Assembly (NCBI RefSeq): GCF_020520425.1
Contig: NC_079489.1
Span: 19,864,001 to 19,928,000 of the forward strand
Length of the DNA stretch: 64,000 nucleotides
Origin: Spinacia oleracea
Lineage: Eukaryota > Streptophyta > Magnoliopsida > Caryophyllales > Amaranthaceae
Direction: 5' to 3'
Shown here: one piece after another, positions 818 through 64,000 of the stretch
How positions within the stretch are numbered: the stretch's first letter is position 1
How the letters are laid out: every line of letters begins with the position of its first letter
The notes under the pieces: generated by a model
Told to the model about the DNA's origin: nothing
Seen by the model: only the letters and a program-made list of their open reading frames with translations
The model's database searches: none
Position numbers and translations under genes: made by a program

Positions 818-3800
818 CTATTCACCGGTAAGGTAGAATGATGGAAGCAGCCAAGAAAAGAAACCCAGCTTTGTCTCTCCCTTTGCGCGTCTGTAAGAAT
901 AATCTGCCAACATGTTCCAAAGGTCTCCAACGGTCCAATTATGGGACATAATCCAACTACGTACCTGCACCGAATTCCCAAGCGAATCGGAAATGAGCAT
1001 GTAAACTGTTTAGTAATATTCAAATGTCTATACGAGCTCATAACGATTCAGATATAAGTGGAAAACCATTGATTATAGGATCTTGTAAATCAGTTTCAAA
1101 ATTAGAGAAGCTAATGGAGTGGAGTGGAGTGGAGTGGAATGGAATGATTTCCTTCAAAAAATATAAGAAAGAAAGTACCTGATCCAAATTTCGCAAAGCC
1201 TCCATTTCAAATGTGTAATATAAAACAAAAGGTCTTAAGGCCTGAGAAGGTTAAACGAAAACATTAGATATGCTTGACGTTGGAGAGAACCCAAACAAGG
1301 AAAACACATTCCCTCACACACTTCCAAGTTCCTTTACAAACTCAGACAATAAACTAATGCAAGAAACAAAAAGAACAAAAGTTGGCAATGTTTGAAAAGT
1401 AAGTTATTTGAAATTACTCTTTGCATCTTATCAGTAGTCTGAAGCTTAGCTTAAGTGCTTAACAGAATTTTTCTTGAAACAATAAGTATAATCTGAGGAA
1501 AAACTAGTACGACAGGCTTCTGAAAGTCACAGAGAATATTGGTTCTGATAAAAGAGCAGTGAAGAAAGAGGGCCTAAATGGCAGAAACCAAAGAAAGCCA
1601 AATTGTATCGATCAAAACTAGCAGGACTATGATTATAGAAAGTAAATGTCAAAACGGATGAATGGAGATATCAGATAGAATAGAAACAGCAGACCAGAAA
1701 AAAGACACCTCTACAATTTCAAACAGTAAAAAAATAAAAACAAAATCAATGTGGACCAAAAAACGAAACAGAGAGAAAGCAGGCCCTTTGAGATAACAGG
1801 AATTAGGCCAATATTAAACTGTAAATACAGAAAGATTTGGGAAGCTGAAGGTTGCATAACCATATACGGTAGAGGATTTACACAAATTTCTCAAAGTTAA
1901 ACGATTACAATTGGTGGTTACCCTAACTTAATGAAGCGTTGTTACGGGTAATTCATGAGAAGTTGAGAACTACCTTTCTCGAGATGTATAGCACCAAAAA
2001 CACTTTGACGTTTCAACAATCTAGAAAAAACTAACTTTAAAACAGCAGCACTGGAAGTAAAAGTCACCTGAGATGCAGCTAGCCACTGTATAACTGTCTT
2101 TACTTGAGGATCTCCACCAAAAGCACCACAACCCCAGTTTCCAGTAGCAATCCCAACATCACTATGACACATTTGCAGCTTAAAGTCCATACTCTGAGTC
2201 GCTTTTGATCCATCAGTGTCTGGAAAGATCCCACAGTCCTGGAGAGGCCAAAAATAGATATTGAATCAGGTCAATGTTGAACATTTAACCTAACTTGACA
2301 AGGAAAGCAACAACCTACTTTATCATAGGCTAGAAAAACGTCCTTATGAATTTGAGGGCCCTAACTCCCAACAAAGAAAGAATATAGAAAAAAATGGGCG
2401 AGCAAAATAACAAAGCACAATAGGTACAAGAAAGTTGGCTCCTTACTGTTGCTTGACTTTCAGAGTTGTTGACATCCATAGGATCACTACCAGGCTGAAC
2501 TTCGCGAGAACTGGAACATTGCAACGGGATCTGAAACTGCTGATCTTTAGGTTGATCCAGAAAGCCACAGAATGCCTTGTTAACCTCTCTGTCAAAATCA
2601 AACAGTTAGCTATGTACCTTCACAAGAGAAAATGAAATTTCAGTATCTTACAAGGAACGCAATACGCCACATCATTTTCTGCACAACATCTTAAAATTTT
2701 CGAATAACCTATGGCTTTAACCCTTTGCTCATAACAACTATTTACACACATTACATTTGTTATTCAGTGATCCCAATTTGACTACATAGACAATTGCCCC
2801 TCAAGATCGGAAATACATGTAGATGTAACACCCATCTGATTCTATACTTTTCACGGTGCATCTTATTTGTGTAATCCGAAAAGAAGATTAAAAAAGGTAA
2901 CAGAAAGTGAAAGCTACGCTTGCATTTGCAAGAAGCAGTGCAAATGACAACTTGACAGACGAAAGTCTTCTTACATTTAAACCCTTAGCTAGACAAACCC
3001 ATGTACCACTATATAATTATCTATTACTACCTCCATTTTCCTGAGCTCCACTCAGTTACTCCAACAACATGAACCAAGGAGAACTCAAGATGAGGACCAC
3101 TCGTGTACATACTCTTGCTTTTAGGAGGAGAGAGATAAGAGAGTAAGAGAATTTGTCGGTATTAAATGTAACTGGGTCCGTAAAAGTAGGGGGATGATGA
3201 TAAAATATGAATAGAACTTATAGAAGGCTGACATAAAGAGAACAAAGTAAAAGTGAGTAGAACTTAGGAAACAAATTAAAACGGAGAGAGTAGAACTTAG
3301 TAAAATGAGGTAGTACTTGAAGCAAAGACCAGATTAAACCAAACCAGATGGTCTTACCTTCGCTTCCTTATTATCAAAAAGATTTTTAAAATCATATTAA
3401 TAAAATTATGAAAATTAGATAACTGGAAAACAAAGATTAAGACGAATCTAACAAGATCCCACCTAACAATAAGTTTTTCTTATATACTTTTTGAGTTTTT
3501 TCACTTCCAAAAAATTCACCACTTGGGTTTAAAAGCTTTTTAAGATGAGGAGAAATATGGAAAGTTGAGAGCTAACTCATGTGATTACACAAAAAGCAAG
3601 CACATTGTTTTATTCATTCACCCACTTGGCCACTTGCACCCAAAATAAAATCCTAATCAGGTAAGTGATGCAATTATTTAGGAACTTCCCAAATAGACAA
3701 ATGCTGCAATATTAGAGTAAAAATTGGTCTAAGTTTAATCAAAACAAGAGATTAAATCAAATCAGACCAAACCATACCCCTTTAAAAAATGGTCAAAGTT

Positions 3801-22386: not shown

Positions 22387-23444
22387 TGTCACAGCCCGAA
22401 TTTTTCGCGCCGTGCGGCACTCTAGTCCTCCCTCGAATCAGCCTTACTCTACGCCTAAGGAGGGTATTTTGACCCTTAAACGTAATTGCGGAATAATAAT
22501 CTAAGTACTTCGAAATAAAACACAAGTATATGGGTGTGGACTAGTTTTATTTCTCAGGCAACAAAGCATACAACGAGTGTCCGATCATAAGATCGTACAT
22601 GGGTCTTAATCGATTGTTATTAAGTACCTTGGACAACCCCCAAGGTCTTCCTATTTATAGGCTACATGGGCGACGGTTACAGCCCTTTACACGACAGTTA
22701 TAATACATTAATTAAATAATGTAACCGCTCCTTTGTGCAGCGTGGCGTCCTTATCCATTTATCCCAACCGTCGCTGACTCAGCGTCTCACATAACTGTCA
22801 TGCGCTGCATCCAACCGCTGCCACATACATTGCACCTGTTCGCTAACTGCTTCACATAACTGCATGTGCATGTGCAGTGCATGCGCGCACAAAACTGCCC
22901 AGCAACCGCCCTTGCATGTGCAGCGCATGTGCGCCCATGGCACACACACACTTTAGCTACATGGATTGCGCCCAGTGCCTAGCTAGCTACTCCGCAGCCC
23001 AGCTGCTCTAGCTCGCCCACTCGCACGATCAATTGTTTAGCTAGCTCGTCGACTCCTGCCAGCTGATGTGCTCCTCCTAGCTATCTGCCGTGTTGCTCCA
23101 GCCCACACTGAGCTACACACCAGCTCGTAGTAGTGTGCACAACTCCTTGGACCAACCAAGGGAACTCAACGCAAGCCCACGCTTGGCATCGAGCTTACTA
23201 GCATCTCGTCGAGCTACGCCGCATCGATCGTCTACTTTCCGAGTAGCTCGGCTGCACCGTAGAGCCTTCGTGAGCTATCGTCGAGTTGTTACGAGCTATG
23301 CACCGCGCCATTGAGCTGACGACCAGCTGCCTAGCTCACCGTAGAGCTAGCATACACCCAAGCATACCACCATAGGCATCACTCGGCGTCACCATAGAGC
23401 ATCCGAGTAGTCCAAATGCGGACCAAACATATCGGGTCCTCACA
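22387..23444 (-). repeat. 3' LTR of the TR-GAG element (left on plus strand)
   Basis: 1058 bp, bounded by TGTCACAGCC and GGGTCCTCACA on the plus strand. Rich in AGCTAG and CGTCGAGCTA words. It differs from its partner at 25680-26745 by scattered substitutions and a few small indels. Confidence 0.92.
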
Positions 23445-25679: not shown

Positions 25680-26745
25680 TGTCACAGCCCGAATTTTTCG
25701 CGTCGTGCGGCACTCGAGTCCTCCCTCGAATCAGCCTTACACTACGCCTAAGGAGGGTATTTTGACCCTTAAACGTAATTGCGGAATAATAATCTAAGTA
25801 CTTCGAAATAAAACACAAGTATATGGGTGTGGACTAGTTTTATTTCTCAGGCAACAAAGCATACAACGAGTGTCCGATCATAAGATCGTACATGGGTCTT
25901 AATCAATTGTTATTCAGTGCCTTGGACTGCCCCCAAGGTCTTCCTATTTATAGGCTACATGGGCGACGGTTACATCCCTTTACACGACAGTTATAATACA
26001 TTAATTAAATAATATAACCGCTCCTTTGTACAGCGTGGCGTCCTTATCCATTTATCCCAATCGTCGCTGACTCAGCGTCTCACATAACTGTCATGCGCTG
26101 TATCCAACCACTGCCACATACATTGCACCTGTTCGCCAACTGCTGCCCATAACTGCCTGCGCATGTGCAGTGCATGCGCGCACAAAACTGCCCAGCAACC
26201 GCCCTTGCATGTGCAGCGCATGTGCGCCCATGGCACACACACTTCAGCTACATGGATTGCGCCTAGTGCCTAGCTAGCTACTCCGCAGCCCAGTTGCTCT
26301 AGCTCGCCCACTCGCACGATCAACTGTTTAGCTATCTCGTCGACTCCTGCCAGCTGCTGTGCTCCTCCTAGCTATCTGCCGTGTTTCTCCAACCCACGCT
26401 GAGCTACACACCAGCTCATAGTAGTGTGCACAACTCCTTGGACCAACCAAGGGAACTCAACGCAAGCCCACGCTTGGCATCGAGCTTACTAGCATCTCGT
26501 CGAGCTACGCCGCACCGATCGTCTACTCTCCGAGTAGCTCGGCTGCACCGTAGAGCCTTTGTGAGCTATCGTCAAGTTGTTACGAGCTATGCACCGCGCC
26601 ATTTAGCTGACGACCAGTTTCCTAGCTCACCATAGAGCTAGCATACACCCAAGCATACCACCATAGGCATCCATAGGCATCACTCGGCGTCACCATAGAG
26701 CATCCGAGTAGTCCAAATGTGGACCAAACATTTTGGGTCCTCACA
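25680..26745 (-). repeat. 5' LTR of the TR-GAG element (right on plus strand)
   Basis: 1066 bp, a direct repeat of 22387-23444. The main length difference is a short duplicated CATCCATAGG-type segment near its right end. Confidence 0.92.
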
Positions 26746-55409: not shown

Positions 55410-55888
55410 TCAAGCCTTGGGTTTAGTCTCGTAAAACTTTGGTCCTTCGCCTGTACTCATCTTGAATTCTATTCCCTTTGCATTGACCCACTGATATGTC
55501 TTCACCCATCCGTTCTCGATCTCTTCTGGTGTTGGTGTAGGAGTGATTAACCGGGTTGGATTGAAACCTTCATCTTGCAGGGCTAGGTTGGTTATTACAG
55601 TCTCGTCCTCCATAGGCCTCGATTCGTTAAACAATGTCCATAGAGCTTGGTTGTCTAATATTTCAGCTATTTCAGTCTTGGTGAGGTGGGGTGCCTCATC
55701 CATAGTATGACAGTCATGGAAAATCTCAAATCCGGGTTTTAGCAGGCCATTCTGAACAAAGGGTTCAGGGAAGTCGCAGCATGGGTGTTCTTCTCCTTCT
55801 CGGACAAACATACCGTTAAGGGTTCTTTGGTATGGGGGAAGAAGGGTGGTTTGTTTTGTCTTGGCTGGCTTAAGGCGTAGCCTAAACA
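55410..55888 (-). pseudogene. Gypsy-type polyprotein fragment, downstream part (split by CACTA)
   Basis: This is the continuation of the minus-strand frame at 63799-64000 after the CACTA transposon and one ACA are discounted. It contains TLLPPYQRTLNGMFVREGEE, CCDFPEPFVQNG and EGFNPTRLITP and ends KFYETKPKA with a stop at 55410. I take it for the poorly conserved part between protease and RT of a Ty3/Gypsy polyprotein. No RT motif (Y-x-D-D) is present, so the element is deleted or this is a non-autonomous lineage. The frame is open, implying a young host element. Confidence 0.65.
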
Positions 55889-55939
55889 CACTAGTAGAAA
55901 AAACCCTTATTGCAGCGGGCTTTTAGACCCCTGTTACAG

Positions 55940-56240
55940 CGTACATCGTATGCTGCAACTGGGGGGCCTGCAACAAGTCTGAACTTGTTGCAGCGTACAA
56001 TGTTCGCTGCGAAAAGTGGTTTTTTGCAGCGTACATATGCCTGTACGCTGCAACAAGTGTCTAAATTTTGGCTAAAATCTTGACTTGTTGCAGCGTACAA
56101 ATAGGTGTACGCTGCAAAAAACCCAACCTGTTGCAGCGAACATCTATTTGTACGCTGCAATAGGTCTGGTTTTTTGCCAAATTTTACACCCTTGTTGCAG
56201 CGTACATATATATATGTACGCTGCAACAAGGGTGTAAAAT
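55940..56240. repeat. Left subterminal palindromic repeats of CACTA
   Basis: Six tandemly spaced palindromes of the form TTGCAGCGTACA-N6-TGTACGCTGCAA (for instance near 56025, 56090, 56131 and 56197). In CACTA elements such repeats bind the accessory transposase protein. Confidence 0.88.
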
Positions 56241-56667
56241 TTTAGTTTTAGGGATACCTAGATTGCCCAAATACAGAAACCTGTCACAACAATAATAGAA
56301 TATCGCAACATGTATAACAAATATAAAAACAATAAATAGTATTTTGAAGATATCCCAAAACAAAAGTGCACGTACCATATACATTTAAATATATGTATGT
56401 TCCAATTTCAACGTATGCATACATTTTAACATAAAAGATTGTTCTATAATATCTAAACTAACTCGATCAAGCGCCCCTAGGCCAATAATAAATACTTGCA
56501 GCCCATTGCTCACGAACCACATCAATTTCCTCACTAGCATAAGACGTATTCCTCGGAGTATAGACCTTTACAAAAACAAAAAAAAATATCACATTTTAAC
56601 ATTCAAGCAACTAATGGCAATGTCCTAATAGTCTAAAATACGAAGCAAGAGTAAGGAAAATTAATTA

Positions 56668-57805
56668 GGAAAAATTACTTTAAATAATCCAACCTTTCGA
56701 CGATTTTCTGTTAATAATCCGACCTTTGGATTATTATCTAATAATCTAACCTTTGCACCCCATTAACTTTCATTGCACCTAACAAGTCACCAACCCGGTA
56801 TAGCAGGTCACCTATATACGTGTCATGCAACCATTTGTTATTTTTATATTAGAAAATAATTAATATATATTTTTTTTTTCCCTTTACCTTCTTCCTTTTT
56901 CTAGTTTTTTTCTTTCTTCTTTTCTTTACCCTTCCTCCTTGTTTAGTCGCGGCCTCCACCAGAACTCTAACCCTTAACCAAATCCATTATAAAAACCATT
57001 TTTTTCATTTTTAATATTATTTCTTTGAATTACATTAAAAAAAAAAAAACTTCCTCATCTCCTATATCCACCACCGCAACTCCTCCTCTTCCGCTTCATC
57101 ATCATTCCTTCTTTATTCTTCTTGTCAATCACCAACAAGTTATGCCTCTTCAACTAGTGAAATTTCTATTGATTTTTTTTTTATGATTAGTAAAAAAATT
57201 AATGAAGGATTACTCAAATAACTAAAGAGAATTTCAATTGAAATTTTAGTATGAGGAAACGGATTTGTAGATCTTGATGAGGGTGTGGTTATATATCTGC
57301 TAGATTTTGCCGCCCCACTTTGTAGATGGTTTTGATGGTGGTGACAGAGCTAGGGACATTCGAGGTGAGGGGTATTAGCAGTGGTGGTTGATTTTGGGTG
57401 TTAGTGATTGTTTGTTGGTGGTGAAGAATAGACGGTGGGGAGGAGAGGTGAAGGAGAAAGATGGTTGGTTTAATTGGTTGGGTAGTGGTTGTGGTGGTGG
57501 TGCGGTACAGACAATAAAAGGATGGAGAGAAATTTTTTGTTACATAAAGGTAAAATTAATTTTAAGAAATATAAATAAAATAATTCCATCAAAAAGGAAA
57601 AAAAATACAGCAATCAGTTTTGAGGAAGGATGGGTTCTTTTTAGAATAAATAAATAAAGGTGATGACTTGTTGTGCCGGTTGCAAGTGGTTTAGGTGCAA
57701 TAAAAATTAATAGGGTATAAAGGTTAGATTATTAGATAATAATCAAAAGGTTGGATTATTAACGGAAAATGGTCAAAATGTTGGATTATTTAAAGTAATT
57801 TTTCC
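56668..57805. mobile_element. MULE-like element nested in the CACTA, 1138 bp
   Basis: Terminal inverted repeats of about 100 bp begin GGAAAAATTACTTTAAATAA at the left and are mirrored at the right (GGATTATTTAAAGTAATTTT, then TCC). A perfect 9-bp duplication AATTAATTA lies at 56659-56667 and 57806-57814. A 90-residue frame at 57388-57657 has no recognisable product. Confidence 0.85.
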
Positions 57806-57829
57806 AATTAATTAATTACCTCATGTAGC

Positions 57830-59285
57830 CTTAGGTTATGCATATTAAACATGTAATAAGTTTAAAATGAGTATTAGGTTCTATAGTTCAAAGTTGGGAG
57901 CGAAAATGCCTCATTTTAGCCTAAATATGACCTACAACGACCAAACAAGCCTTAAATGTACATAAGTAGATTAGAATAAGTCTTAGAAACTTAAAAATAA
58001 GCATATTAATCATATAATAAGTTTAAAATGAGTCCTTAGGTTATTTAGTTCAAAGTTGGGAGCGAAAATGTCTAAATATGACCTATAACGACCCAATGAG
58101 TCTTAAATGTGCATAAATAGATTGGAATGAGTATTATAAAGTTAAAACTAAGCATATTAATCATGTAAAAGGTTTAAAATGATTCTTTATATTCTTTAGT
58201 TCATAGTTGGGAACGAAAATGTCATTTTAGCCTAAATATGTCCTATAATGACCAAACAAGCCTTAAATGTGCATAAATAGATTGGAATAAGTCTTAGAAA
58301 GTTAAAACTAAGCACATTAATCATGTAAAAGGTTTAAAATGACTCTTTAGGTTCTTTAGTTCAAAGTTGGGAACGAAAATGTCATTTTAGCCTAAATATG
58401 ACCTATAACGACCCAATGAGCCTTAAACATGCATAAATAGATTGGAACGAGTCTTAAAAAGTTAAAATTATGCATATTAAACATGTAATAAGTTTAAAAT
58501 GAGTCCTTAGGTTCTTTATTTCAAAGTTGGGATTACTTTAGCCTAAATATGACCTATAACGACCAAACAAGCCTTAAATGTACATAAGTAGATTAGAATA
58601 AGTCTTAGAAACTTAAAAATAAGCATATTAATCATATAATAAGTTTAAAATGAGTCCTTAGGTTATTTAGTTCAAAGTTGGGAGCGAAAATGTCATTTTA
58701 GGCTAAATATGACCTATAACGACGCAATGAGCTTCAAATGTGCATAAATAGATTGGAATGAGTCTTAGAAAGTCAAAACTAAGAATATAAAACATATAGT
58801 AAGTTTAAAATGAGTCCTTAGGTTCTTTATTTAAAATTTGGGAGCGAAAATGCTCATTTAGCCTAAATATGACCTATAACGACCAAACAAGCCTTAAATG
58901 TGCATAAGTAGATTGGAATGAGTCTTGGAAACTTCAAGCTAAGCATATTAATCATGTAAAAGGTTTAAAATAAGTCCTTAGGTTCTTTAGTTCAAAGTTG
59001 GGATCGAAAATGTCATTTTAGCCTAAATATGACCTATAACGACCCAATGAGCCTTAAATGTGCATAAATAGATTGTAATGAGTCTTAGAAAGTTAAAACT
59101 ATGCATATTAAATGTATAATAAGTATAAAATTTGTTTTTAGGTTCTTTAGTTCAAATTTGGGAGCGAAAATGTCTCATTTAAGCCTAAATATGACCTATA
59201 ACGACCAAACAAGCCTTAAATGTGCATAAGTAGATTGTAATAAGTCTTGGAAACTTAAAACTTAACATACTAAACATGTAAATCA
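57830..59285. repeat. Nine-copy ~158-bp tandem array in the CACTA
   Basis: Each unit contains CCTAAATATGACCTATAACG (positions near 57920, 58072, 58228, 58392, 58542, 58702, 58861, 59022, 59186), ATTAATCATGTAAAAGGTTT or a variant, and AGTTCAAAGTTGGGAGCGAA. Divergence between copies is roughly 5-15 % by eye. It is satellite-like and non-coding. Confidence 0.92.
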
Positions 59286-59348
59286 GAAGAGAGGGTGCAA
59301 GAAAATGATGTGCAACAGAAAATGGTTGTAGGAAAATAATTTCACCTG

Positions 59349-59460
59349 ACTGACGAATCCGGTGTCAAGCATCCAATGAACAGGGATGTGAAAAGACTTG
59401 AATTCGGTGGCTGCTGATTCTCTTAGTCGCGACAGATTATAAACCCCGTGCTCTAATCTG
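59349..59460 (-). pseudogene. Captured exon resembling CHUP1-like protein
   Basis: Between an AG acceptor (above 59460) and a GT donor (below 59349) the minus strand encodes LEHGVYNLSRLRESAATEF and then IPVHWMLDTGFVSQ. The latter matches the I-P-V-x-W-M-L-D-x-G-x-x-S block of CHUP1/IPGA1-like proteins (chloroplast positioning, microtubule-associated), as I recall the family. A single exon only. Confidence 0.7.
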
Positions 59461-59601
59461 TTTCAATTAGCATATCATGAAATTGCATTAGCTAATTGAA
59501 ATCAAAATGTTATACAGAATTGCAACAAAGAAAAATGAACATGAAAAATGGATGTTGTTGCATGTAGTAACAAAACGATTACCGTGGTCCTGGTCAAATA
59601 C

Positions 59602-59713
59602 CTCTAGGACTTGCAGAGGATCGAGTGACTCTTAGTGATTATGAAGAAGGCGAACTGCAGCATTGAGCATTGGTTCCTTACCGTTCTGTGGATCCAAATG
59701 CATATCAAGCAAC
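59602..59713 (-). pseudogene. Captured exon of VPS3/TRAP1-like (TGF-beta receptor-associated protein 1 homologue)
   Basis: A 112-nt exon with proper splice sites encodes LLDMHLDPQNGKEPM, LNAAVRLLHNH, a stop in place of Gly, and ESLDPLQVLE. This is a highly characteristic block near the C-terminus of the plant VPS3-like vacuolar sorting protein. The in-frame stop shows the copy is not functional as such. Confidence 0.8.
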
Positions 59714-59883
59714 CTAATGGTCATGAAATAAAAAATCAATTAGAATATATTTAGAACTCTGTTTGACACATTCAAAAAAATCGTTAGAGGTTTTGGCTTT
59801 TGAGTAAAAGTCAAAATTCATAAGGCTCTAACTCCTAAATATAATCCAAATAGTGTGACTAGTTTCTACGATTTCTGATATAC

Positions 59884-59948
59884 CTCCACAATTTGAGCAA
59901 CAGTCGAGCTGCTTTGAAGACTATCCAGGTACTTCTCTGGATGCACCT
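59884..59948 (-). pseudogene. Exon-like fragment of unknown origin
   Basis: Flanked by GTTTACAG and GTATATCAG-type splice sites, it encodes VHPEKYLDSLQ, SSSTVAQIVE. I do not recognise the parent. It lies between the VPS3-like and DUF506-like exons in the same orientation. Confidence 0.35.
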
Positions 59949-60529
59949 GTAAACAATTGAACTCCCAATTAGAAATTGCTCAAGAGGCAATGGACCAACA
60001 ACTGCTTGTAATACCATGTTCGTATAATTATTCATCCTTAGAAATCATCATGCTCCCACCACCCCAGCCCCCCAACAAAACTCTAACGCGCACTTTAAGA
60101 AGAATATGTATACTTGGCCTGTACAACTCTCAACTTTAAAGAATCTTCAAAAAAAAAAAAACTTTGTTCCTTGGTAGAAGGTGTGTGCATTTGTAAATGG
60201 TCTGATTTGTGTATCACTTTGCCCATGTTCAACCTTGTTTAACATAGTCGAATCAAACTTGAGTTTCCAGACGAGCTCAAACAGTTTTTTAAACTTGATT
60301 CATTTAAGAATCAATATGTTCAAGTTCAGCTCGTTTATTAATTGAGCTAAGCTCATAGGCGGACTTCTTTTTCCTTTAGATCATTTAACTAAAAAACTCA
60401 TCAACGGGCCATAATTTATATCTGGTTAAGTTATTTTTGTTTTGAGGAAGTATGAGAATTGGATAAACCCGAGAATTTAGAATATGCAAAAAAATGTTAT
60501 TGAATGAGATTTTCAGGAAGCGATTATAC

Positions 60530-60620
60530 CTCCAGGCACCTTGTTACAACCTTGCCATTTTGAAGCACATACTGCAGCATTGTAGCCCGACGATCTGAGA
60601 AGCTTCACCAAAGCATAATG
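60530..60620 (-). pseudogene. Captured exon of a DUF506 (PDDEXK-like) gene
   Basis: The minus strand encodes LVKLLRSSGYNAAVC, ASKWQGCNKVPGG up to a GT donor. L-x-x-x-G-Y-x-A-A-x-C-x-S-K-W is the characteristic block of plant DUF506 proteins. Only this exon part is present. Confidence 0.65.
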
Positions 60621-60704
60621 AATACAATTTCCATAGCATAGACCAGATTTAACAAGCTGAAGCTCGTTTACATCCATAGATAGTAAAAGAGATTGGACCG
60701 TACC

Positions 60705-60763
60705 ACAAACTGCAAGTCACTCTCATACTGATCCACCGAGCGCTTAAAGAACTGCACAATGAC
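60705..60763 (-). pseudogene. Exon-like fragment, FFKRSVDQYESDLQF
   Basis: A 48-nt open stretch between a TGTGCAG acceptor and a GTACGG donor on the minus strand. Parent unknown. The spacing is consistent with being part of the same chain of captured exons. Confidence 0.3.
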
Positions 60764-61506
60764 AACGAGCAAATATAAATCTCTCCTTCACAGATATAGA
60801 GAAGAACTCACAGAGTAGGTACAAGAAAAGGCAGGGCAATATCTTATGTGATAGGCATCAAATCACAAAAGCTATATCAATAGAGTAAAAAATGAACCAA
60901 ATTGAATACTAATAGTATAATACTATCACAAATCAGACTTTGTTTTTCCTCAAAAAGTAAAGTTTATATTAAAATGTATTTGTTTAGGGACACAGACAGA
61001 GAAGCTGCTTCTAACAGAAGGATCAAAACTCAAACTACAGAGTAAAAGTACTTGATTTTCCTCAAAGTAAAGTTTCAATAATTTTAGAACAGAATTACAT
61101 TCCCTCATTTCCAAGAAAGTATCAATCACATCTACACATTTCTTTGGAAGTGGCTTCCGCAAATTCATATCCGTAACTGAAAGCTATCATTGTCCAAACA
61201 CAATTATTGTAAAGTAATCCAATTTTCCAAGAACTATCAACCATTTCCATCAAAATTAACCAATTGGTAATTACTTCAAATTCAGTTGCATCTGCAAATA
61301 AGTAATGTTTTAATTTGGAACACTTGACACTCTAACACTTCAATCATCAGTCAAACACTTCAATTATACTTCCTATTATATACTTTGTGTTAAGCTCAAA
61401 GTTTCTTTACTTATTACCAATACAACCTAAGAAAAACTGTAGTATGGATTCAGCTTTTCAGTTTATTAACAATTCATTTTGTTTGTAGCTTTGCTTAGAA
61501 TTCGAA

Positions 61507-61671
61507 ATGAGTGATAATCTGGATGGGGTTGAAGAAGATGATGTTGTGATGTTTGGAAGGAGTAGGGGCAATTCAAGAAGGCAGAGTTTGGTTATTGATG
61601 AAGAAGAAGATAATGAAGTTGAGGGAGGTGCAGTTGTTGTAGGAGAACAGAGTATTATCAGCAGCTATTAA
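61507..61671 (+). CDS. Small acidic ORF of unknown origin inside the CACTA
   Basis: A 54-residue ATG-started frame, MSDNLDGVEEDDVVMFGRSR and on to an Asp/Glu-rich tail, on the strand opposite to the other captured fragments. It could be a first exon piece of another captured gene. Composition looks coding (no low complexity apart from the acidic run), but I recognise no family and expression is unknown. Confidence 0.3.
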   Translation: MSDNLDGVEEDDVVMFGRSRGNSRRQSLVIDEEEDNEVEGGAVVVGEQSIISSY

Positions 61672-61704
61672 ATAATGATAACTAACAGTAACAGTGATTC
61701 AGAG

Positions 61705-61795
61705 TTAGACAAATAGATGGATATGGCCTGGACAAAGTTAGAGAAGTGGACAAACAGATGGATATGGCCTGGAAAAAGTTAGAGAATTGGATTTA
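61705..61795. repeat. ~44-bp tandem duplication
   Basis: GACAAANAGATGGATATGGC and CTGGANAAAGTTAGAGAA occur twice in succession. Local slippage. Confidence 0.8.
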
Positions 61796-61869
61796 AAATT
61801 CCTTATCTAATTTCAGTACGCATTTAAATTGTGAAATGAGGAGATTTAGGAGAGAGAGAGAGACTTGGA

Positions 61870-62305
61870 AAAGTTAGAGAAGGAGGTCATAAGAAGATCA
61901 GCAAACTGAGCAGGTGTATACTGTCTGTAGATATAAGTATTGATGTAGTAATTTTCTGAAGATAATCACTATTTCCAGCACTGAGAAGATGAATTCCAGC
62001 TGAGAACATCCCTTTTTCTTTTTCAATCCCCACCAATTTTGTCACCTTACTCTGGTACTCCTTGTAGTACCCCAACTGTTGCGTAAGAGATACCGCCCTC
62101 TGTAGTTGCAAACCCAACAAAGTTAGTCTTTAACATTCAAGTTAAGTTTTATGAGTTAACAAGGTTTTGCATGGAAAGATTGAAACTTTACATATAAGCT
62201 GGCTGTTCTCTCGGCGTAACACGAACCAGCAGACGCAAAGTTGGTGCCAATGAGTAATCGTAGATTTCCAGGCAAAGAAATCGATTATTTTGCGAATGGT
62301 TTTTG
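61870..62305 (-). pseudogene. Captured two-exon fragment of a GDSL esterase/lipase
   Basis: The upstream exon (about 62295-62210) encodes NLRLLIGTNFASAGSCYAER, matching the L-L-x-G-x-N-F-A-S-A-x-S-G-Y block of plant EXL-type GDSL lipases. The downstream exon (about 62110-61870) encodes AVSLTQQLGYYKEYQSKV, GIHLLSAGNSDYLQ and, after a frameshift, YTPAQFADLL. The family block order is right, but the N-terminal GDS catalytic serine segment and the C-terminal DxxH are missing, so this is a fragment. Confidence 0.82.
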
Positions 62306-63180
62306 GGGAACTCTACCTTTTCTTATCCCCTACAAGGCTACAAGAAAGAGGCTAGCTGGAACCATAGCAGAATAGGATTTGACTAGGGAGCGCTAACTCA
62401 AAATCTAAAAGAACAGACAGATCTGATTGTAACTAGGCGAAAGAGAGTAAATGTAAATGTAATACTTCATAAGACCAACTCAAAATAATAATTACCAGTA
62501 ACAAATTCAGGAGGCTAAAGATTAAGTCGCAAAATAAGCCTTGCAAATGCTGGTGTCAACAGCAAAATAGAAGCCTGCATTTTCAAAAAATCACAAAATA
62601 AGAAACTGCTCAAACTCCTGCATGTTCAATTGGTATCAAAATTATAAAACGTCAGTTAAGTGTCAGTGTATTGCCATGAAGTCAATCAATTTAATCCAAA
62701 AGGGTTACAGATATTCCAGCAAGCATTTTCATTGACTTTACAGTTAAATTATCAGATAATACAAACAAAAGAAAAACCAAAAAGGTGATTAGAAAAGAAG
62801 AGTTCCAGAATCAAAGCTTCAAATTTACTTCAAATTGCATTCAAATTACATACCAACTTGTAATTTATCTATAATTCCTAAATAATGCCAAAAATTGAAC
62901 GTTTCAATTACCAAAGATACAGAAATTATGACTTCCTATGAGTTGGCCTCAGACTTTCAAAAGAGGAAAAAGAGAAACTTCATGAAGATAATTAGATATA
63001 TCAATACCTTAATGTAGCTGTTAAATCTAAACAAGCACGATGATAGATTCCTGCAGGCAGTACGATCTTCACAAATTAAGTGCAAAGAACGAATTGAACA
63101 ACTAGCCAAAAAAACAAAAAAACAAAAACAGAATTGTACAAACCCTAATTCTAAAAATGAAAATCAAAAGGGGACAGGAA
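62306..63180. other. Intron-like CACTA segment, no gene recognised
   Basis: AT-rich, with a possible minus-strand acceptor near 63050 (CTGCAG). No open frame of note. Confidence 0.3.
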
Positions 63181-63490
63181 GATAATTACTTGTTGTGGCG
63201 AGGAGTGACGGCCGAGCAAGCACCAGAGAACAGACCGTTCTTTCTTAGAACCACCGGCCGAGCTAGCTGAGTTTTCAGCGACTATGTCTGTCGTGGTTCA
63301 GCGCGGAGAACGTACAAGACGCGACGGGGGGAGGAGGCGAGAAAAGACACTCACCGGCGAGGAGAGTGACGGCGGATCCGAGCAAGAAGAGTTCGACGGC
63401 GACGCAGGACCGAGCAAGCTCTGAGTTCGTCGGCGACGCAAGGAATTGAAAACTGAGGGAAGAAGCTTGGAGTTGAGCGCGGGGAACTCT
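63181..63490 (-). promoter_or_regulatory. GC-rich leader or first exon inside the CACTA right end
   Basis: About 300 bp of C/G-rich sequence with repeated GCGTCGCCGACGAACTC-like words on the minus strand and a good donor (CGCCGGTGAGTG near 63345-63356). The base composition is unlike the rest of the transposon and like a plant gene's 5' UTR. It stands upstream of all captured exons in their reading direction, so it may have been captured as promoter and exon 1. Confidence 0.45.
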
Positions 63491-63574
63491 AAAATTTTGA
63501 GATAGATATTTTAGTTAAATGAATTAATTATTCAACAATAATATTATTCCAGCAAACAAATTTTGTTACACGGA

Positions 63575-63780
63575 TTTGTTGCAGGGTACAATAACATGTA
63601 CGCTGCAACAGTATCTAGCTATTGCAGGGGGCTTTTAATATGTACGCTGCAAAAAGCTCTTTTGCAGGGGGCAATTAATTTGTACGCTGCAATAACCCTT
63701 TAAAGGGTTTGACCTGCATTGACCTATTGCTTGTTGAAGCGTATTAATACATGTACGCTGCAACAAGGGGGCTGCAACAG
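63575..63780. repeat. Right subterminal palindromic repeats of CACTA
   Basis: Four units, TTGCAGGGTACA...TGTACGCTGCAA and variants (near 63580, 63625, 63660, 63731), in the same design as the left-end repeats. Confidence 0.88.
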
Positions 63781-63798
63781 GGGTTTTTTCTACTAGTG

Positions 63799-64000
63799 AC
63801 AAGTGGTCAGCAATATCTTCCTCCGTTGGTGTATAGCCTAGACCAAAGGGAGTAGTTTTGTTGGGTGGGGGATGGAACATGTTGTTCTTCTTCCTTATGC
63901 CCAATGGAGTTCCCGGGAAATAGCCTTGAGCTAGCAACATTTTAGGGATGACCCGGGACGCTCGCGGATCTAGAAATGCTAAGTTGTAGTCCTCAATGAC
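63799..64000 (-). pseudogene. Gypsy-type polyprotein fragment, upstream part
   Basis: The minus-strand frame is open to the window edge and contains FLDPRASRVIPKML, GYFPGTPLGIRKKN and PFGLGYTPTEEDIADHL. The G-x-G-Y-T/L-G-pattern resembles the G-patch-like stretch after the protease in plant Gypsy polyproteins. Its frame continues at 55885 on the far side of the CACTA. Confidence 0.65.

Follow-up and report, generated by a model that had tools for sequence, protein, structure and literature searches.

Analysis of a 64,000-nucleotide stretch of Spinacia oleracea contig NC_079489.1 (the window, in whose coordinates all element positions are given) identified a complete CACTA transposon at 55889 to 63798 that carries pieces of several unrelated host genes. 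Five fragments, each with native intron edges, matched separate loci in the spinach genome: a GDSL-like gene on C5, a DUF506 gene on C3, a histone deacetylase on C1, a VPS3-like gene on C2 and a CHUP1-like gene on C5. The parents are unlinked and lie on four chromosomes (C1, C2, C3 and C5), and therefore support multi-gene capture as real. We conclude that the element is very probably a non-autonomous, gene-fragment-carrying CACTA of the Pack-CACTA-like or Tgm-Express-like kind, with the fragments as neutral passengers.

The terminal inverted repeats (TIRs) are 18 bp long and perfect, reading CACTAGTAGAAAAAACCC from 55889 with the inverse copy ending at 63798, and are flanked by an ACA target site duplication (TSD). 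Excision of the element and one ACA in silico produced a single long minus-strand open frame spanning the insertion point, and this continuous frame at the empty site fixes the borders of the element independently. The outer features are as follows.

55889..63798, minus strand: complete non-autonomous CACTA element (perfect TIRs, ACA TSD, empty-site frame)
55886..55888: left ACA TSD, read from the sequence
63799..63801: right ACA TSD, read from the sequence
55889..56242: left TIR and subterminal repeats of TGTACGCTGCAA units (repeat and motif search)
63576..63798: right subterminal repeats and TIR (repeat and motif search)

The TGTACGCTGCAA motif, allowing up to two mismatches, occurred 12 times at the left end, five times at the right end and not at all in the middle (56301-63550); with three mismatches allowed, the counts were 13, 7 and 4. 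Terminal inverted repeats, a 3-bp duplication and subterminal repeats at both ends, three features of the CACTA superfamily, are thus present. No transposase was visible inside the element, where the longest stop-to-stop frame (116 amino acids) lay within the subterminal repeats. A Pfam scan of 15 peptides, 14 of them from the element, also showed none, though not every open frame of the element was included. Transposase_21 is abundant in the genome, with all 150 scored of 1375 candidates above the cut-off and many in long open frames, and the element would have moved by a CACTA transposase supplied in trans.

The genome searched comprised 894,210,420 bases in 242 contigs, C1 to C6 being 115 to 189 Mb long. 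Parents were sought with five queries (59283-59560, 59560-59975, 60420-60960, 60960-61790 and 61800-62300); 59976-60419, 62301-63199, the tandem array and the ends lay outside these searches, and 63200-63798 served as the query for copies of the element. The captured pieces and their best parents are listed below.

59288..59557, minus strand: CHUP1-like fragment whose exon (59346-59457) keeps the acceptor and donor of the parent, 94% to C5:93713964-93714233
59586..59762, minus strand: VPS3-like fragment, exon 59602-59713, 97% to C2:56293133-56293309
59771..60008, minus strand: histone deacetylase fragment, exon 59884-59946, parent C1:121154815-121154994
60469..61318, minus strand: DUF506 (PDDEXK_6) fragment, exon 60530-60751, 95-96% to C3:55739623-55740573 in two pieces
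61504..61611, plus strand: coding fragment in the opposite orientation, no gene assigned, 108 bp matching an open frame in C3:25800500-25800740 at 94%
61810..62256, minus strand: GDSL-esterase-like fragment, with an exon end (to 62192), an intron and the next exon (61865-62099), 93% to C5:38300155-38300596

In the four parents that we read (VPS3, deacetylase, CHUP1 and GDSL), the exons were open and the intron edges matched those of the fragments. All 26 candidates for query 59283-59560 were scored; 19 loci matched at 96-100%, a further six at 93% and one, C5:93713964-93714233, at 94%. The last of these is the CHUP1-like parent, whose exon is open and has the same borders as the fragment, and the CHUP1 identity comes from a match to solved CHUP1 structures (E 1.5e-5). 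Query 59560-59975 gave 23 candidates, all scored: 17 full-length rows (one being the window), four half rows that represent two interrupted element copies, and two lone loci, which are the C2 and C1 parents.

The VPS3 exon alone matched nothing in Pfam or the Protein Data Bank (PDB). When the matched C2 parent exon was manually joined to an exon about 1.2 kb downstream on the same strand, zf-Vps39_C was detected (E 2.4e-13), and the gene is named VPS3/TGFBRAP1-like because of this domain. Searched against the PDB, the parent exons found no VPS protein, the best match being a designed protein (E 0.007). Further same-strand frames around the C2 locus are, we assume, VPS3-like as well. The deacetylase fragment matched C1:121154815-121154994 at 95% over 59771-59954 and at 89% when extended to 60008, and the joined C1 parent exons matched PF00850 (E 9.9e-7; score 28.8 bits, cut-off 27.9); we take this gene to be a class IV, HDA2-like deacetylase.

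The DUF506 assignment is by Pfam PF04720, with E 1.6e-9 for the window copy and 2.7e-11 using the reading of the sister copies; the window copy carries a 5-bp insertion in this exon that none of the 11 other aligned copies has. All 23 candidates for query 60420-60960 were scored. Nineteen were element loci, some of them partial, and the four other matches were C3:55740087-55740573 (96%), C4:87011812 (94%, partial), C1:113883814 (91%) and one match of 33 bp. The C3 match extends to window position 61318 at 95%, and the C1 match does likewise at 86%. Among the best 40 of 52 candidates scored for query 60960-61790, the piece at 61504-61611 matched an open frame at C3:25800559 in the opposite sense.

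An earlier note, made from the letters of the window, had described CACTA termini with an ACA duplication, no visible transposase, a GC-rich leader with a donor site and pieces of at least four unrelated host genes, and had proposed a parent search in the element's own genome; all of this holds, the search having found a separate parent for each of five fragments. Of the names it gave to the exons, DUF506, CHUP1 and VPS3-like were borne out, the last by way of the joined parent exons, while GDSL stays a provisional name. It also counted at least two unassigned exons without giving coordinates. Likely candidates are 59884-59946, now assigned to the deacetylase, and the leading portion of the DUF506 exon, at about 60702-60751, which the 5-bp insertion splits off in the window copy.

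The fragments recur together. With the right-end 599 bp (63200-63798) as query, all 40 places scored, the best 40 of 1690 candidates, gave a match, and we examined 20 fetched copies (labelled L0xx) in addition to the window copy. Both ends were found in 19 copies (18 of the 20 fetched and the window), with identical 3-bp flanks in all of these except L029; L015 and L019 had no left end within the fetched stretch. Nineteen loci carry the CHUP1 and VPS3/deacetylase pieces and at least part of the DUF506 piece. For query 61800-62300 all 40 candidates were scored (42 rows): 17 of these 19 loaded loci also hold the GDSL piece in whole or in part, another three long matches adjoin known right ends, and the remaining long match is C5:38300155-38300596 (93%), where the GDSL-like parent exon is fully open. 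The six loci with a CHUP1-like piece of equal length at 93% (C6:27571675, C4:108313175, C3:131552333, C1:54718200, C6:83207703 and C3:84566272) are perhaps another carrier subfamily.

The alignment comprised 12 copies, the window copy and 11 fetched ones, among them L021 in spite of its deletion; the nine other fetched copies were without cargo or left end or, in the case of L030, contained inserts, and were left out. The mean pairwise difference was 1.4%. With a substitution rate of 7e-9 per site and year, the copies would be about one million years old.

The genome also holds relatives without the GDSL piece and with the GDSL piece only, besides those with the full set and apparent hybrids. 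The right side shared with L032 starts only at 62239, and that shared with L031 at 61784, so that L031 has the GDSL piece without the other pieces. In L018, L020, L023 and L028, the right ends are 97-98% like that of the window and the left ends about 81% (76-93%, in pieces, for L023), and the internal sequence, roughly 1.8 kb, differs from that of the window copy. When 21 right ends were placed in a tree, in which many branches were near zero, those of these four copies and of L019 fell within the loaded group. By their sequence, the four look like hybrids of two lineages. L031 contains, at about positions 2675-3004 of the element, a SAP18-like fragment (PF06487, E 4.4e-5, 24.2 bits, below the cut-off of 27) that matched SAP18 in the PDB at E 0.6. 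The internal sequence of L032 may be myosin-like; a PDB myosin matched at E 0.76 and another Pfam family at E 0.07.

The cargo would have been added stepwise, either through template switching in gap repair or through formation of hybrid elements, and the capture junctions and the hybrid-like relatives fit both. We consider it quite possible, though short of an even chance, that tandem insertion and aberrant excision, as in the Pack-CACTA model of hybrid formation, gathered the cargo in place of template switching. Relatives that combine the right end of one lineage with the left end of another favor this route, and a tandem-insertion and aberrant-excision model is described in PMC13317346. 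However, the deacetylase and VPS3 pieces abut directly, sharing 3 bp (GAA), and nothing recognisable as element sequence separates them; such a joint between unrelated fragments arises more easily by template switching. At the GDSL junction, the GDSL parent match starts at 62256 and GDSL-free relatives match down to 62239, giving an apparent overlap of at most 18 bp, a figure that local alignment can overstate.

The right end is presumed to be the 5′ end of transcription, and two features lie on this side.

62257..63150, minus strand: 5′ side of the element, partly common to relatives without the GDSL piece (copy alignment, parent search)
63160..63510, minus strand: GC-rich leader without ATG, with possible donors GT at 63354 and 63189 (composition, copy alignment)

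On its minus strand the leader has no ATG, against 3.5 expected from base composition, and both possible donors are kept in all 12 aligned copies. Each of the ten native splice sites that the captured exons brought along is canonical in 11 or 12 of the 12 copies. L025 is the exception at the VPS3 acceptor, having an insertion there, although AG remains at its end; the outer GDSL donor is CCAGGT in ten copies, CCAAGT in the window copy and deleted in L021. Chimeric splicing of the captured exons is thus anatomically possible, and chimeric RNAs spliced from the GC-rich leader or a host promoter are the most that the fragments could yield.

These features, together with the antisense orientation of one piece and the dosage provided by 19 loci, could suggest that the chimeric cargo is a functional gene or regulator kept by selection, acting as a protein or through small RNAs against the five parents. 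We regard this as very unlikely. The non-exon spectrum predicts 65.5 changes in the exons, and 60 were counted; 19 of these were synonymous, where 15.1 would be expected (P 0.16). The test is a weak one, as its two wrong-frame controls show, one with 22 of 59 (P 0.08) and the other with 9 of 59 (P 0.97). The VPS3 exon has an in-frame TAA in all 12 copies, and the window copy has, beside its 5-bp insertion, a GDSL frameshift found in no other aligned copy. With no significant synonymous excess and exon changes matching the noncoding expectation, selection on the cargo found no support, and neutral passenger DNA is the best description of the cargo. Similarly slim is the chance that a CACTA lineage is stepwise building and amplifying ready-spliced chimeric sets whose antisense piece and 19 loci would act in trans, through small RNAs, on the parents, the histone deacetylase included.

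We give practically no credence to an ordinary CACTA inserted in or next to a single host gene to which the exons, with their real splice borders, belong, because the fragments are enclosed by the TIRs, occur as a set at 19 loci and have unlinked parents on four chromosomes, and are not, as the earlier note had envisaged for that case, all colinear in one ordinary gene.

Several points weigh against a non-autonomous CACTA carrying captured, neutral fragments as we have drawn it. No transposase gene with the TIRs of this element was linked to it, though Transposase_21 genes abound. Two other long DUF506 matches exist besides that at C3, the putative parent. The opposite-sense piece may itself be a repeat, since about 104 bp of it recur at seven other loci (among the best 40 of 52 candidates). 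The GDSL name of the 61810-62256 piece is an assumed one; no match to the family came from Pfam, NCBIfam, the PDB, viral contigs or the text of papers, DUF6353 alone appearing, below the cut-off (E 0.0057 and 0.065). The divergence of 1.4% would by itself leave splice sites intact in 11 or 12 of 12 copies, and chimeric transcripts are a prediction from the sequence.

Two further features lie on the left side of the element.

56668..57805: nested Mutator-like miniature inverted-repeat transposable element (MITE), with 115-bp TIRs, 90% complementary, and a 9-bp TSD
57837..59282: tandem array of about nine 160-bp units, present in 19 of the 20 fetched copies

The TSD of the MITE is AATTAATTA, at 56659-56667 and 57806-57814, and the MITE is absent from all 12 of the 20 fetched copies that align across 56667/57806. 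Long TIRs, a 9-bp TSD and an empty site in sister copies assign it to the Mutator-like MITEs. The CACTA itself interrupts a long minus-strand open frame, with flanks at 55410-55885 and 63802-64000. A Pfam scan of these flank frames matched no family, and the interrupted frame gives the impression of a retrotransposon. Elsewhere in the window, 22387-23444 and 25680-26745 are direct copies of about 1.07 kb, 95% identical, like the long terminal repeats of a retrotransposon. A 17-base terminal pattern occurred in four viral contigs, about chance level by estimate.

The element contains coding sequence whose parent loci lie elsewhere in the genome, as in Pack-TYPE elements, and several unrelated gene fragments with introns, as in the Tgm-Express type. 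As described in PMC1947982, Tgm-Express1 of soybean is a 5.7-kb CACTA (the spinach element is about 6.8 kb without the MITE). It too has the ends of a CACTA and holds intron-containing fragments of five unrelated host genes, and splicing of their exons gives chimeric transcripts. It differs in its genes and host; the spinach set occurs at 19 loci, the same genome holds divergent relatives, and chimeric transcripts were demonstrated in soybean whereas the spinach element is known from its DNA. The novelty that the earlier note saw in this combination therefore holds for the particular genes and not for the kind, which is published. Non-autonomous TIR elements with coding DNA, sometimes from several loci, are likewise described in PMC8903248 and PMC13317346, the former reporting Pack-TYPE elements with several source loci in maize and rice; the spinach element differs in its gene set and relatives. 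In Chenopodium CACTAs, from the same plant family, gene fragments have been captured toward the 5′ side and tandem arrays lie toward the 3′ side, where the 160-bp array sits here, but in examples from PMC8978399 the fragments lie upstream of a retained transposase-associated domain, with one source gene per element.

A literature search combining the spinach genome and CACTA found no paper in the collection searched, so this spinach CACTA family may be undescribed, its kind being known. Gene predictions and small-RNA maps at the 19 loci may reflect transposon cargo. The series of relatives could reveal the order and the junction chemistry of gene capture by CACTA elements, the mechanism of which is still debated.

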